Both the position numbers and the translations under genes were made by a program. A stretch of DNA of 64,000 bases from Marinobacter qingdaonensis (GTDB lineage Bacteria > Pseudomonadota > Gammaproteobacteria > Pseudomonadales > Oleiphilaceae). Below, piece after piece: positions 14,040 through 24,433 of the stretch (positions within the stretch are counted from its first letter, which is position 1; every line of letters starts with the position of its first letter). The DNA lies in NCBI RefSeq assembly GCF_034555935.1, contig NZ_JAYDCJ010000003.1, positions 2,046,001 through 2,110,000 on the forward strand, read 5' to 3'. The notes beneath the pieces were generated by a model that saw only the letters and a program-made list of their open reading frames with translations, did no database searches and was not told the origin of the DNA.

Positions 14040-15800
14040 GTGGACGACACCGTTGCTGACAACCGGCCGCTGAAGATTCTGATCGCCGACGACAGCGACA
14101 CCGATCGCCTGATCCTCCGGGCACTGGTCAAACGGCTGGGGCACGAGGTCTACGACGTCGGCAATGGCCAGGAAGCGGTGGCAATGTTCCAGCAGGCGGC
14201 ACCGGACATCGTACTGCTGGATGCGCTCATGCCGGTGCTGGATGGCATGGAGGCAGCGCGCCAGATCAAGGACCTGGCCGGCGAGCGCATGGTTCCGGTT
14301 ATCTTCCTGACCTCCCTGTCCGAAGCCGGCGAACTGGCCCAGTGCCTGGAAGCCGGCGGCGACGACTTCCTCAGCAAACCCTACAACCGGGTCATCATCG
14401 AGGCCAAGATCAAGGCCTTCAACCGGATGCGGTTGATGCACCAGACCCTGTCGGACCAGCGTGACCTGATACATGGCCGCAACCAGTTGCTGATGCGGGA
14501 GCAGGAAACCGCCAAGCGGGTGTTCGACAACGTCGCGCACACCGGCTGCCTCGACGCCTTCAACCTCCGACACCATGCCTCCCCCCTGGCCATTTTCAAC
14601 GGTGACGTGCTGTTTGCCGCGCCGCGCCCGGCCGGCGGCATGCTGGTGTTCATCGGCGACTTCACCGGTCACGGTCTGCCAGCCGCCATTGGTGCCATGC
14701 CGGTGGCGGAAATTTTCTACGGCATGACCCGCAAGGGCTTCAAGGGCACCGACGTGCTGCAGGAGATCAACCAGAAGCTGAAGCAGATCCTGCCTGCCGG
14801 CATGTTCTGTTGCGGCGGCATGATCGAGGCCGACTTCAAGCAGAACCAGGTGCGGGTGTGGAACGGCGGCCTGCCGGATGGCTGGCTGGTGCCGACCAAC
14901 GGCGACTGCCAGGCGCTGCCGTCCCGGCATCTGCCCCTGGGCATTCTGCGGCCGGAGCAGTTTCAGCCCGAGATGGACCTGTTGACCACCGCCCCCGGCG
15001 ATCAGGTGCTGATGATGACCGACGGCGTGCTTGAGGCCCGCAATGCCCGGGGTGAGATGTTCGGCGAGGTTGGCGTGCTCCGGGCGCTGCAGCAGAGCCA
15101 GGGCAATGGCAGCCAGCCGGTGGATGCGGTCATGACCGCGGTGCGCGCGTTCACCGGTGATCAGGAGGATGATTCGACCCTGCTGGGGCTGGAAATGGTC
15201 GACGAGGCCGGTATCTCCGAACTTCAGGACCGGTCCATCCCGTCGGTGCTGTCCGGGCCCACGGAATGGCGGTGCGTGTACGAGGTTCGCGAGCGCACCC
15301 TGGGTGATTTCAGTCCGCTGCCCTTGCTGCTGCACATCTGCATGGAGGTGCCCGGCCTGCGGCGCCGGAGCGGTGAGATCTACACGCTGCTGGCGGAACT
15401 GTACAATAACGCCCTCGAGCACGGCGTGTTGGAGTTGCCGTCGGACTGGAAGCATTCGTCCGAGGGCTTTGGCCGCTACTATGAGGAACGCCGGCGCCGG
15501 CTTGGCCGGGTCGAGGGGCACTTCATCCGCTTCAGTCTCAACCACACCATGACCGACACCGGCGGTCGCCTGCGGGTGGTCTGTGAGGACAGCGGTCCGG
15601 GGTTTGATTTTCACAACCACCCGGCGCTGGTCTCGGGCGACCCGCCCGCGGCGACCTCCGGCTACGCCGGTCGAGGCTTGATGTTATTGAAACGGCTGGC
15701 AGAATCGGTCACCTTCCACCAGCAAGGTAACCAGGTTGAAATTGTTTACGACTGGGACGCCGTCTCCGGCTCGCTGGAGCCGGAGACGGCGTCCCAGTGA
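14040..15800 (+). CDS. hsbR: HsbR-like response regulator with PP2C phosphatase and ATPase/kinase domains
   Basis: A 586-residue three-domain regulator. Residues ~10-130 are a receiver with D61 as phosphoacceptor (IVLLDALMPV) and Lys in FLSKPYN. The middle ~200 residues are a SpoIIE/PP2C-type serine phosphatase with metal-ligand segments VFIGDFTGHGLPAA and MMTDGVLEARN. The C-terminal ~130 residues form an HATPase_c anti-sigma-type kinase domain (AELYNNALEHG, CEDSGPGFDF, GYAGRGLMLLKRL). In Pseudomonas, HsbR phosphorylates or dephosphorylates HsbA depending on its receiver state, set by HptB. The start is a GTG at 14040 with GAGG 5 nt upstream. A perfect 21-bp inverted repeat covers its last codons and stop. 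Confidence 0.83.
   Translation: MDDTVADNRPLKILIADDSDTDRLILRALVKRLGHEVYDVGNGQEAVAMFQQAAPDIVLLDALMPVLDGMEAARQIKDLAGERMVPVIFLTSLSEAGELAQCLEAGGDDFLSKPYNRVIIEAKIKAFNRMRLMHQTLSDQRDLIHGRNQLLMREQETAKRVFDNVAHTGCLDAFNLRHHASPLAIFNGDVLFAAPRPAGGMLVFIGDFTGHGLPAAIGAMPVAEIFYGMTRKGFKGTDVLQEINQKLKQILPAGMFCCGGMIEADFKQNQVRVWNGGLPDGWLVPTNGDCQALPSRHLPLGILRPEQFQPEMDLLTTAPGDQVLMMTDGVLEARNARGEMFGEVGVLRALQQSQGNGSQPVDAVMTAVRAFTGDQEDDSTLLGLEMVDEAGISELQDRSIPSVLSGPTEWRCVYEVRERTLGDFSPLPLLLHICMEVPGLRRRSGEIYTLLAELYNNALEHGVLELPSDWKHSSEGFGRYYEERRRRLGRVEGHFIRFSLNHTMTDTGGRLRVVCEDSGPGFDFHNHPALVSGDPPAATSGYAGRGLMLLKRLAESVTFHQQGNQVEIVYDWDAVSGSLEPETASQ
15751..15798 (+). repeat. Perfect 21-bp inverted repeat over the hsbR stop codon
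   Basis: Left arm 15751-15771 and right arm 15778-15798 are exact reverse complements with a 6-nt loop (CGCTGG). The right arm ends on the first base of the TGA stop. No T-run follows, so it is not a standard intrinsic terminator. The RNA hairpin would be very stable and lies 32 nt before the hptB-like start. Confidence 0.9.
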
Positions 15801-22055: not shown

Positions 22056-23192
22056 ATGGCCGAAGAGAACGACAACAGTCAGGAAAAAACGGAAGAGGCC
22101 ACGCCCCGACGACTTGAAAAGGCGCGGGAGGAGGGCCAGACGGCGCGGTCCAAAGAGTTGGCGACCATGGCCGTGCTCATGGCCGGCGCCGGCAGCCTGA
22201 TGATCTTCGGGGCCAGCCTGGGCGGTACCCTGGAAGCCATCATGCGCGACAGCTTCGTGCTCGAGCGAACCGCGATCTTCGACACCCGGCACATGAGCGT
22301 CCAGCTCATTGCCTCCGCCAAGGAGGCGGCCTGGGCCCTGGCCCCCATCCTGGTGGTCTTGCTGGTGGCGGCCATCGCCGGCTCCATCGGCATCGGCGGC
22401 TTGCTGTTCAGCGGCAAGGCCATCGCGCCAAAATTCAGTCGCATGAACCCGATCAAAGGCCTGGGGCGCATGTTCTCGGCCCGGTCCCTGGTCGAACTGG
22501 TCAAGGCCATCGCCAAGGTCGGATTGGTGATGGCGGTGGCGATCCTGATCCTGAACCTGCGCACCGAAGACCTGCTCAGCATCGCCGAGGAACCGGTGGT
22601 ACCGGCCATGGAACACGTGCTCTGGACCCTGGGCTGGAGCTTCTTCCTGTTGTCCTGCGCCACCATCGTCATCGCCCTGATCGATGTGCCTTTCCAGATC
22701 TACGACCACCAGAAAAAGCTGCGCATGACCAAGCAGGAGGTCAAGGACGAGTTCAAGGACACCGAGGGCAAGCCCGAGGTCAAAGGCAAGATCCGCCAGC
22801 TCCAGCGGGAAATGGCCCAGCGCCGCATGATGCAGGACGTGCCCTCGGCCGACGTGGTCATCACCAACCCGACCCATTACGCGGTGGCGCTGAAGTACGA
22901 CCAGAACGCCATGGGCGCGCCGGTGGTGGTGGCCAAGGGCGCCGACGAGGTGGCCTTCAAGATCATGGAGATTGCCCGCGAGCACAAGGTGGAAGTGCTG
23001 CGCACGCCGCCGCTGACCCGGGCGGTTTACCACAACACCGACCTCGGGGAGGAGATCCCCGACGGCCTCTACATGGCCATCGCCCAGGTGTTGGCCTATG
23101 TCTTCCAGCTACGCCAGTTCCGCAAAGGGCGCGGTCCCAAGCCCGGTATGCCTGAGTTCCCGATACCGTCGGATTTGCGTCGGGACGTATGA
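22056..23192 (+). CDS. flhB: FlhB, flagellar export switch protein
   Basis: A 378-residue protein. The N-terminal start EDSQEKTEE-type motif (NSQEKTEEATPRRLEKAREE) precedes four transmembrane helices. The cytoplasmic domain has the autocleavage site NPTH at about residues 271-274 in VVITNPTHYAVALKY. Cleavage and FliK contact switch export from rod/hook to filament substrates. It ends the fliL operon, and 37 nt later begins palindromic element 1. Confidence 0.97.
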   Translation: MAEENDNSQEKTEEATPRRLEKAREEGQTARSKELATMAVLMAGAGSLMIFGASLGGTLEAIMRDSFVLERTAIFDTRHMSVQLIASAKEAAWALAPILVVLLVAAIAGSIGIGGLLFSGKAIAPKFSRMNPIKGLGRMFSARSLVELVKAIAKVGLVMAVAILILNLRTEDLLSIAEEPVVPAMEHVLWTLGWSFFLLSCATIVIALIDVPFQIYDHQKKLRMTKQEVKDEFKDTEGKPEVKGKIRQLQREMAQRRMMQDVPSADVVITNPTHYAVALKYDQNAMGAPVVVAKGADEVAFKIMEIAREHKVEVLRTPPLTRAVYHNTDLGEEIPDGLYMAIAQVLAYVFQLRQFRKGRGPKPGMPEFPIPSDLRRDV

Positions 23193-23229
23193 TTTCATGG
23201 ATCCCAGCCTGCTCGATTTCGGGAAGGGC

Positions 23230-23331
23230 GTTTGTGGGTGGCCCTCCCAAAAACCGCTACGAGCACGTCCATGTGCGCTTGTGTCCGGCCATCCATGGCC
23301 TCCCACATTTTTGGGAGGGCCACCCACAAAC
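23230..23331 (-). repeat. Palindromic repeat element 1 (core on minus strand)
   Basis: A perfect 24-bp inverted repeat: arm 23230-23253 is the exact reverse complement of 23308-23331, and pairing continues imperfectly outward (TTCGGG...CCCGAA). The enclosed 54 bases, read on the minus strand, contain CCATGGATGGC, CAAGCGCACATGGACGTGCT and AGCGG in the same order as element 2. No open frame, no target-site duplication that I could identify and no T-run after the right arm. Confidence 0.88.
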
Positions 23332-23420
23332 ACCCCCGAATCGTGAGAAAGGCTGAGCCTGAAAGGACTGCCACGAGTATTCGACGGGTTGATGCAATCG
23401 CAGATCTATTGCCGCAAGTT

Positions 23421-23534
23421 GCGGTGGCTGTGGGGAATGGCTTTCCAAAACTGTGCGGAGCCATGGATGGCGGAGCTCAAGCGCCACATGGACGTGCTTG
23501 AGCGGGTTTTGGAAAGCCATTCCTCGCAGCCACC
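23421..23534 (+). repeat. Palindromic repeat element 2 (core on plus strand)
   Basis: Arm 23434-23451 (GGAATGGCTTTCCAAAAC) is the exact reverse complement of 23506-23523; pairing continues outward for about 11 more bases with two mismatches. The core (23452-23505) shares CCATGGATGGC, a CAAGCGC-ACATGGACGTGCT segment and AGCGG with element 1 but in opposite orientation. Inside, GCTCAAGC and GCTTGAGC form an 8-bp hairpin and GCCATGGATGGC a smaller one, so the whole could fold as a three-way junction. Confidence 0.88.
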
Positions 23535-23560
23535 TGCGCCAATCCCATCAGGCTGGGAAA

Positions 23561-24433
23561 CTAGGTCGCCCCCTTATCACTAAGGCCCGATTCAATCACC
23601 CGAACCATCGGCTCACCGCGACTCTCGGGAATGGCCAGGCGGTCGTACCAGTTACGTGGGTCGTGGACCACAGCGGAGTGGAAGCCGCAGTCGAGGAAAT
23701 GGCGACGGGCCTCGTCGTCGGTCTGGAAGTGGAACGAGACCTGGCTGCGGGTGGCGGCGCCCAGGAGTTTGCCCAGGGCGTTGAGGGAGCCGTTCAGCAG
23801 TGGCGGTCGGGGGCGGTAATAGCTTTCGGTCAGGTAGACCGAGCCGGGGCGCTGGGCCAGGGCGGCGGCGAGTCGTTGCCAGAAGGTGGTGATCACGTCC
23901 AGCGAGAAATAGCTGGTCAGGCCTTCGGTAACCACGATCACCGGTTTGCGGTTATCGAATACCCGGTCGAGGACCTGTTCCAGCTGGTGTTCGCCGTGGT
24001 CGGCCAGGATGTCGATGGGGGTCACCTGGTGGTTGCTTCCCAGGCGGTCGGCGGCCAGCAGTCGCAACGCCTTGCGGCCGGCCATGTCTGGCAGGTCGGC
24101 CTCGACCATGTGGATGTCGGGGTGGCGTTGGCGCAGTCGGATGCCCCGGGGCGACATGCCGCAGGCGATTTCCAGCACCTGGGTGATGCCCTGGCTGGTG
24201 ATGGCCTGGTCGATCAGTTCATCGATGATCAGGTGGCGTTGCAGCAGGAAGGTTCTGATGTTGCCGCCGATGGCCAGCTGGCTGGCGGACTCGAACGGGG
24301 TCATCAGGTGGTAGAGCCAGCGCCCCTGGCGGGTGGCGAGGCAATCGTCGGAGAGTCCATACCGGTGCCAGACGGCACCGGTATAGAGGGCGGTAAAGCT
24401 GATGCCCGAGCTGTCAGTTGGTTTGCTGCTCAT
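23561..24433 (-). CDS. Class I SAM-dependent methyltransferase, leucine carboxyl methyltransferase-like
   Basis: A 290-residue protein. The SAM-binding motif I is VLEIACGMSPRGI at about residue 90, followed by an acidic residue in VEADLPDM. VIVVTEGLTSYFS matches the post-II motif (TEGLxxYF) typical of the PPM1/TcmP (LCM) methyltransferase family. The substrate cannot be told from sequence. The ATG at 24433 overlaps the uraA stop by 20 nt, so it is probably translated from the upp-uraA transcript. The longer frame to 24457 lacks support. It converges on flhB across the palindromic elements. Confidence 0.75.
   Translation of the reverse strand: MSSKPTDSSGISFTALYTGAVWHRYGLSDDCLATRQGRWLYHLMTPFESASQLAIGGNIRTFLLQRHLIIDELIDQAITSQGITQVLEIACGMSPRGIRLRQRHPDIHMVEADLPDMAGRKALRLLAADRLGSNHQVTPIDILADHGEHQLEQVLDRVFDNRKPVIVVTEGLTSYFSLDVITTFWQRLAAALAQRPGSVYLTESYYRPRPPLLNGSLNALGKLLGAATRSQVSFHFQTDDEARRHFLDCGFHSAVVHDPRNWYDRLAIPESRGEPMVRVIESGLSDKGAT

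Follow-up and report, generated by a model that had tools for sequence, protein, structure and literature searches.

A dispersed family of double-loop hairpins under strand-specific pairing selection, candidate CsrA/RsmA-binding RNAs of Gammaproteobacteria

What maintains two long palindromes that have unlike arms and one shared core, set in opposite orientation between flhB and a methyltransferase gene? The question is raised by one intergenic region of the window, i.e., the whole 64,000-nucleotide stretch of Marinobacter qingdaonensis DNA analysed here, and the original prediction answered it with selection on a folded structure, naming as possible identities a dispersed REP/MITE-like element, a cruciform protein target and an mRNA 3' structure. 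Arm extraction and folding agree on two hairpins of about 110 bp with opposite cores, each with its own self-paired arms, and matches to PF01312 and PF04072 place them between convergent genes, flhB (+) and a methyltransferase-family gene (-), as had been proposed. The features are the following:

22056..23192, + strand: flhB, the upstream neighbour (PF01312)
23226..23335, core-sense strand -: element 1, complete hairpin (arms, fold z -7.65)
23226..23253: element 1, left arm, which is the 3' arm on the core-sense strand (arm extraction)
23263..23276, - strand: element 1, second small hairpin, loop ATGGAC (ensemble folding)
23287..23300, - strand: element 1, first small hairpin, loop ATGGAT (ensemble folding)
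23308..23335: element 1, right arm, which is the 5' arm on the core-sense strand (arm extraction)
23423..23534, core-sense strand +: element 2, complete hairpin (arms, fold z -9.54)
23423..23451: element 2, 5' arm (arm extraction)
23460..23471, + strand: element 2, first small hairpin, loop ATGGAT (ensemble folding)
23475..23503, + strand: element 2, second small hairpin, whose loop exposes ATGGAC (fold and ensemble)
23506..23534: element 2, 3' arm (arm extraction)
23561..24433, - strand: leucine carboxyl methyltransferase-family gene, the convergent neighbour (PF04072)

The arms of element 1 (28 nt, 96% complementary) include 24 perfect pairs between 23230-23253 and 23308-23331, and those of element 2 (29 nt, 93% complementary) include 18 perfect pairs adjoining the core. 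The two cores, 54 nt each (23254-23307 on the minus strand and 23452-23505 on the plus strand), do contain the shared words that had been pointed out, inverted relative to each other, and both also carry two CsrA-type A-N-G-G-A loops, which the original prediction had missed; in the first loop of element 1, TGGA is unpaired in the ensemble and the first A is partly paired. Against 200 dinucleotide shuffles the core strand folds with a z-score of -7.65 (element 1) or -9.54 (element 2) and the complementary strand with -7.29 or -8.83, and none of the 200 shuffles folds as well in any of these four tests. Read on the core strand, the single mismatch of element 1 and the two mismatches of element 2 are all G.U. 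As for the description of the arms as unlike, they do differ and nevertheless pair, but they are not wholly unrelated, sharing a weak profile that runs across the family (inner CTTTCCAAAAC, G-rich 5' arm). At gathering thresholds, no Rfam family matches anywhere in the window.

Both elements belong to a large family. A covariance model built from 70 copies (R1) scores element 1 at 105.6 bits (23230-23331) and element 2 at 102.9 bits (23428-23529), and finds 63 matches in their own genome, 60 of them strong (76-107 bits, 30 on each strand), the next best reaching 41 bits; as 150 of 1946 candidates were scored, this copy count is a floor. A core-pattern search recovered copies in 34 of 58 genomes, namely 33 of the 37 from the same genus and one of the 21 others, and the reversed-pattern control over the 58 genomes gave three matches in total. 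At E <=0.001, R1 matches at least 57 of 145 genomes and at least 38 of 87 genera in a sample of the order, and at least 49 of 276 genomes and at least 45 of 216 genera in a sample of the class, both being floors obtained with a genus-trained model and at most 27 and 14 candidates scored per genome, respectively; outside the genus, sequences were read for 33 R1 matches in 24 loci of the order. When a 27-nt fixed core pattern was run over named genomes, at least 120 stretches matched, and the titles of the 120 listed are Gammaproteobacteria, except for two called only Proteobacteria. Among the matches listed are Microbulbifer, Shewanella, Rheinheimera, Xanthomonas, Stenotrophomonas, Halomonas kin, Methylococcaceae, Yersinia and Marinobacter, all of which we take to be Gammaproteobacteria. 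The 80 of these at least 120 stretches that were analysed contain 84 pattern sites, 51 of them with arms scoring >=12. Element 2 gave one 21-base match at chance level against phages and none against plasmids. On the test on which the original prediction was staked, the existence of further copies with covarying arms, it is borne out: the family is dispersed, with 60 copies in its own genome and 57 of the 145 order genomes matched, and its arms covary (see below). No published description of the dispersed family was found in a literature search conducted mostly outside subscription journals.

On the core-sense strand, all parts follow one order: 5' arm, joint, hairpin A, joint, hairpin B, joint, 3' arm. 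The loop of hairpin A reads A-N-G-G-A-Y and that of hairpin B is alike, the joint between the two hairpins holds (G/A)AGC, and the joint before the 3' arm ends in GCG(T/G); outside the genus the corresponding joints are CGT, GAGC and TTYACRGCGT, a reading to which the search pattern itself contributes. All 60 own copies have A-N-G-G-A as the first loop (N being T in 38, G in 14, A in 5 and C in 3), and 56 of them also as the second loop (N being T in 26, G in 25, C in 3 and A in 2), three of the remaining four keeping GGA. Both loops are A-N-G-G-A in 31 of the 33 R1 matches from other genera, and among the 77 pattern sites of the class that lie away from edges (seven of the 84 sit at edges), 63 have A-N-G-G-A as the first loop and 75 retain GGA there, the second loop being fixed by the pattern. 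The distance from first to last ANGGA is 23-25 nt in 163 of 196 genus copies (those with an arm score of >=10). As the genus loci were mostly retrieved by the core pattern, this invariance of the core is inflated, the R1 sets being less affected. The 5' arm of the same 196 copies has a mean length of 27.3 nt (sd 3.1) and a variable sequence. The outer edges of the elements are weakly conserved: with up to one mismatch, GCACCAA occurs in 80 of 196 copies versus 45.5 in shuffles (50 within the first 10 nt) and CAGGCTA in 74 of 196 versus 21.6 (44 in one 10-nt bin), and AGTTCGG occurs in 33 copies versus 19.1. One copy, at locus L063, is fully palindromic, with ends GTAGCCTG/CAGGCTAC.

The pairing of these variable arms is under selection. 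In the 70-copy alignment, 97.6% of cells are paired versus 67.2% in shuffles, two-sided changes affect 30 of 34 pairs versus 25.1 in shuffles, and 674 cells are changed on both sides, versus 181 in shuffles and 102-145 after sliding. The mismatches reveal on which strand this selection acts, since the palindromic arms are themselves blind to strand and only the core tells the two strands apart, so that a bias towards G.U marks a fold of the core-sense strand. With an arm extraction that weighted every mismatch type equally, the 5352 arm positions of the 196 copies comprise 5175 Watson-Crick pairs, 106 G.U, 16 A.C and 55 others; the G.U to A.C ratio of 106:16 has p ~2e-17 under the assumption of independent copies, which does not strictly apply as orthologs are included. 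Counted per element, G.U is in the majority in 77, A.C in 7, and both are equal in 112. In other taxa, 60 G.U stand against 5 A.C on the core-sense strand (56 of the 84 sites, with arm score >=10, a locus of >=3000 bases and a position away from edges). The excess does not depend on gene setting, and copies whose core is antisense to both flanking genes show it too (28 versus 4). Hence what selection maintains is the core-sense strand in folded form, and the proposal that it acts on the fold and not on the arm sequence stands, whereas a cruciform target in which both strands are equal is not supported, given the asymmetry of 106:16 and 60:5. In our reading the folded strand would be RNA, although a single DNA strand tolerating G.T would give the same bias. 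More generally, comparing G.U with A.C mismatches offers a way to recognize selection on a single-strand fold in palindromes, whose arms alone cannot tell the strands, and to set aside those that are neutral or act at the DNA level.

The elements are mostly old residents of their sites. At the 3' end of flhB, an element is found at 14 of 23 same-genus loci (own included), its core starting 73-102 nt past the stop codon and lying antisense to flhB in all 14; six of these 14 species have a second, opposite element and eight a single one, and the arms differ between species. Among 124 same-orientation ortholog pairs from different genomes with at least 150 nt aligned per flank, mean identities were 0.59-0.67 for arms and 0.73-0.83 for cores where flank identity was 72-82%, and 0.70-0.80 and 0.83-0.90, respectively, where it was 85-92%, the arm values scattering widely. 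In the 19 ortholog pairs whose arms are at least 80% alike, 36 two-sided Watson-Crick changes were counted, together with one-sided changes giving 17 G.U, 3 A.C and 3 others, and one two-sided A.C/G.U change. Over seven genomes, core identity averages 0.827 between orthologs (n=55), 0.761 between paralogs (n=1232) and 0.732 between unrelated copies (n=7458), and arm identity 0.64 between orthologs versus 0.53 between unrelated copies, with pairing retained. Near-identical paralogs are few: of 1232 pairs within one genome, 0.9% have an arm identity of >=0.8. Where orthologous sites each hold a single element, 63 pairs agree in orientation and 15 are reversed, either by inversion in place or by loss of opposite members of a pair. 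From the similarity of orthologs, their kept orientation and the paired changes in their arms, it follows that the elements are mostly inherited in place, the stem turning over by compensatory change. Strong concerted evolution of the cores was considered and set aside, the effect being mild at most (paralogs 0.761 versus unrelated 0.732).

Two irregular sites may be mentioned separately. In locus L052, the first 300 bases past flhB contain an apparent fusion of two elements, in which half of one element, on the flhB side, runs into the outer arm of the other and the arms are mismatched, as if the stretch between the cores had been deleted. In L004, L012, L025, L036 and L124, which represent one orthologous intergenic site, the orientation of a single element varies by species.

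The expected intergenic bias was found: of the 191 copies flanked by >=500 bp on each side, 188 are intergenic according to a gene caller based on the codon usage of the window (calling by ORF length is unreliable, as the elements themselves contain open frames). The nearest predicted gene is a median of 36 nt away, and within 100 nt in 174 of the 188. These intergenic copies lie in convergent (64), divergent (25), tandem sense (47) and tandem antisense (52) settings, single elements in tandem settings being 29 sense and 33 antisense; for comparison, 61 neighbouring gene pairs of the window are 52 tandem, 5 convergent and 4 divergent. Of the 60 own copies, 58 could be placed (a loop filter dropped two): 17 sense, 15 antisense, 13 convergent, 12 divergent and 1 overlapping. 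The 56 sites in other taxa comprise 10 sense, 17 antisense, 12 convergent, 8 divergent, 6 edge and 3 overlapping cases. An mRNA element acting in cis should favour the sense orientation, so the near equality of sense and antisense weakens this reading, and with it the earlier suggestion of an mRNA 3' structure (ratios of 29:33 for singles and, in the own genome, 17:15). The column profile shows no T-run after the 3' arm, the 3' flank being T-poor, and the G+C-rich stem followed directly by a T-run that defines an intrinsic terminator is not what these elements have. Upstream, no conserved promoter was found (TATAAT-like words 41 versus 61 in shuffles).

Where two elements lie close together, their cores point apart in 37 of 37 cases of the seeded set (17 genomes, some pairs being orthologs), with gaps of 11-181 bp and with GATATCGC in 8 of the 37 spacers, partly orthologs. 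Model matches added two exceptions, (+,-) pairs, one at locus L195 and one in the own genome (L330, G000:C3:1731784-1732019), where the cores face each other. Descent from a paired ancestral unit is the only explanation that we can offer for the bias towards cores pointing apart. A different arrangement, in contrast with the inverted pairs, is that of four direct tandem copies about 180 bp apart on an uncultured Saccharophagus contig (L227, 3159-3723).

The closest described relative by anatomy is TwoAYGGAY (RF01731), which likewise carries two AYGGAY-loop hairpins above a long outer stem, and of which the elements are not members by score, as both stay below the cut-off of 43 bits: element 2 reaches 39.7 bits (E 6.8e-5) and element 1 36.1 bits (E 4.6e-4). 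Both window elements have AYGGAY loops, the wider family A-N-G-G-A. In the own genome TwoAYGGAY reports ten places, none above the cut-off; at E 0.01 it gives sub-threshold matches in 3 of 20 genus loci and no match in 20 loci of other genera, and 18 further loci (other taxa or Marinobacter) gave no match to an element at gathering thresholds. Rfam types TwoAYGGAY as cis-regulatory, in contrast with the absence of orientation bias here. In the parts of the literature available to us, it is listed as a probable RNA from human gut, gamma-Proteobacteria and Clostridiales (PMC2864571) and predicted to bind CsrA by Gardner and Eldai (PMC4333381), and the accounts found, as far as they were available, describe neither dozens of copies per genome nor inverted pairs nor strand-specific pairing.

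A second relative is the Yersinia sRNA Ysr224 (RF02770), whose consensus corresponds to a core of this kind read on the complementary strand. In 20 other-genera loci it gave four matches at element positions on the complementary strand (L177, two in L188, L195), at 29.9-40.8 bits and thus far below its cut-off of 70; in the window it has no match at the gathering threshold, and none within 23100-23650 even at E 10. Possibly one of the two annotations is on the wrong strand, or transcription runs across both. According to sources available in part, Ysr224 has several expressed copies in Y. ruckeri (PMC12112432) and is among the commonest annotated sRNAs (PMC9029176). The YPAL and RU-2 repeats of Yersinia, described in the accessible sections of two papers as intergenic, about 130-169 bp long and with stable predicted RNA folds (PMC2229807, PMC2267715), differ in being described as recently mobile, with target duplications. 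REP and BIME sequences are also dispersed intergenic palindromes, often in inverted pairs (PMC2817692, in part), but REPs measure 20-40 bp (PMC3733652, in part), unlike the present elements of about 110-130 bp with variable arms that alone average 27 nt. The Y1/RAYT transposase family (PF01797) has no match in the own genome, and matches in 5 of 14 control genomes. The suggestion of a REP with a companion RAYT is thereby not supported, given the missing Y1_Tnp match, the length and the variable arms.

Computation thus supports a family, a covarying stem, strand-specific selection on pairing, near-constant loops and inheritance in place. The reading that we favour, at roughly even chances, is that CsrA/RsmA is bound by RNAs made from the dispersed elements, which would probably serve as decoys in trans. 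The core-sense strand of each element would specify a structured RNA with a stem of about 27 bp, nearly free in sequence and topped by two short hairpins, whose A-N-G-G-A-Y loops would be bound by CsrA/RsmA, an RNA-binding protein that forms dimers; copies would be old, mostly inherited in place, with folding maintained by selection. Transcripts crossing the elements would expose double CsrA sites, and so bind and buffer CsrA/RsmA. Since the elements occur in either orientation to neighbouring genes, a role in trans would be most likely, like that of CsrB/RsmZ-type RNAs, but spread over dozens of loci. CsrB and RsmXYZ are single genes with many sites each; they share GGA hairpins with the elements, and theirs sequester CsrA/RsmA, at least in the partial accounts available, whereas the elements offer two sites at each of about 60 loci and lack a recognizable promoter.

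The loops fit the CsrA SELEX consensus, RUACARGGAUGU, in which a hairpin loop presents the GGA (review PMC4347634, available in part); in the elements, GGA lies in the loops of short hairpins that come in twos. The own genome has one csrA match (G000:C3:3016977-3017132). In the order sample csrA is found in 57 of 57 element-bearing genomes and is missing from 7 of 88 others (Fisher p 0.042), a weak association that ignores phylogeny and takes two 145-genome samples to be identical. RsmZ (RF00166), the one sponge RNA sought, has no match in the own genome in a search in which no control genome passed the cut-off. Several observations run against the favoured reading: the upstream promoter signal is absent, Ysr224 is annotated on the opposite strand, 4 of 60 second loops are imperfect, and TwoAYGGAY finds no match at E 0.01 in 20 loci of other genera.

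The alternatives differ in how they account for the same observations. It is unlikely, though worth serious thought, that the elements act in cis in the untranslated ends of mRNAs, by stopping transcription or shielding the message from decay, the loops mattering little or bringing CsrA to that very mRNA. Their closeness to genes (188 of 191 intergenic, a median of 36 nt away, 174 of 188 within 100 nt), the excess of convergent over divergent settings in the seeded set (64 versus 25), the very stable stems, and a similar role suggested for YPAL repeats in part of a review (PMC2229807) are all in line with this. However, tandem settings show no sense bias (29:33 for singles, 17:15 in the own genome, 10:17 in other taxa), convergent and divergent settings are about equal in the model-found own set (13 and 12), antisense copies have an equally strong G.U bias, the stems have no T-run behind them, and a plain stem would have no need of two constant loops. 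We consider it improbable that the elements are instead relics of a miniature transposon, recognized in transposition through a hairpin of its single-stranded DNA, the pairs with cores apart being the old unit and the singles halves that remain after loss. Dispersal, the 37 of 37 seeded close pairs with cores apart, weakly kept outer edges (e.g., CAGGCTA, 74 of 196 versus 21.6 in shuffles) and the flhB site, paired in six of 14 species and single in eight, would be explained; but a dead relic would not keep its pairing at orthologous sites despite the turnover of its arms, near-identical paralogs are few (0.9% of 1232 pairs), the search of the genome gave no Y1 transposase, and two opposite (+,-) pairs exist, in the own genome and at L195.

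Pairing could also persist without selection, if template switching copied mutations from arm to arm, as in quasi-palindrome correction, an established bacterial process, and the two-sided Watson-Crick changes in close orthologs (36, versus 23 one-sided) are in keeping with this very unlikely explanation. Because the arms are palindromic, template switching is blind to the orientation of the core, yet G.U exceeds A.C 6.6-fold and 12-fold; such upkeep would conserve neither core nor loops, and long hairpins that lack the core are rare (17 of 231, in loci mostly retrieved via the core: six cross-pairs between elements, five copies of a GTAG repeat, three of a second family, two variants and one in the window). 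Finally, a 54-nt core might have been inserted into the loops of older terminator hairpins, the arms then belonging to the host site; this would make arms site-specific and cores shared, as they are, but we find it scarcely credible. Empty long hairpins are hardly seen in the loci read, which leaves insertion into existing hairpins unsupported; the arms also share a weak position-specific profile, and ortholog arms diverge through paired changes.

Returning to CsrA/RsmA-binding RNAs, a bolder form, which we regard as possible but doubtful, is that of a distributed sponge, many gammaproteobacteria buffering CsrA/RsmA by dozens of scattered double-site hairpins in addition to CsrB/RsmZ-type genes. 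The hairpins would be separately inherited and act in trans regardless of orientation, and the overall level of intergenic transcription would set free CsrA. If true, CsrA, a well-studied global regulator, would have tens of double sites per genome, so far unnoticed, across much of the Gammaproteobacteria, the role of an Rfam family whose function is unknown could be tested in free-living laboratory strains, and the elements may represent a large, little-noticed layer of gene control.

Other hairpins and RNAs were also observed. A second hairpin family with variable paired arms occurs at L080 (2295-2377), L105 (1364-1453) and L118 (2420-2510), the latter two sharing a core like GTCCGAGCAAAGCGAGTTC and L080 being less similar. 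A GTAG-tagged palindrome, GTAGGTCGGATTAGCGAAGCGTAATCCGAC, forms REP-like inverted pairs 23-25 nt apart in spacers between or beside elements (L014, L064, L065, L066, L068); the own genome shows no Y1 transposase. The window itself has a perfect 22-bp hairpin with a 4-nt loop at 15751-15798, unlike the element family. Lastly, two Rfam RNAs lie beside own copies, both on the minus strand: 5_ureB_sRNA at L043, 1752-2038 (113.7 bits, cut-off 40), and 6S RNA at L042, 2519-2700 (87.8 bits, cut-off 46.4).
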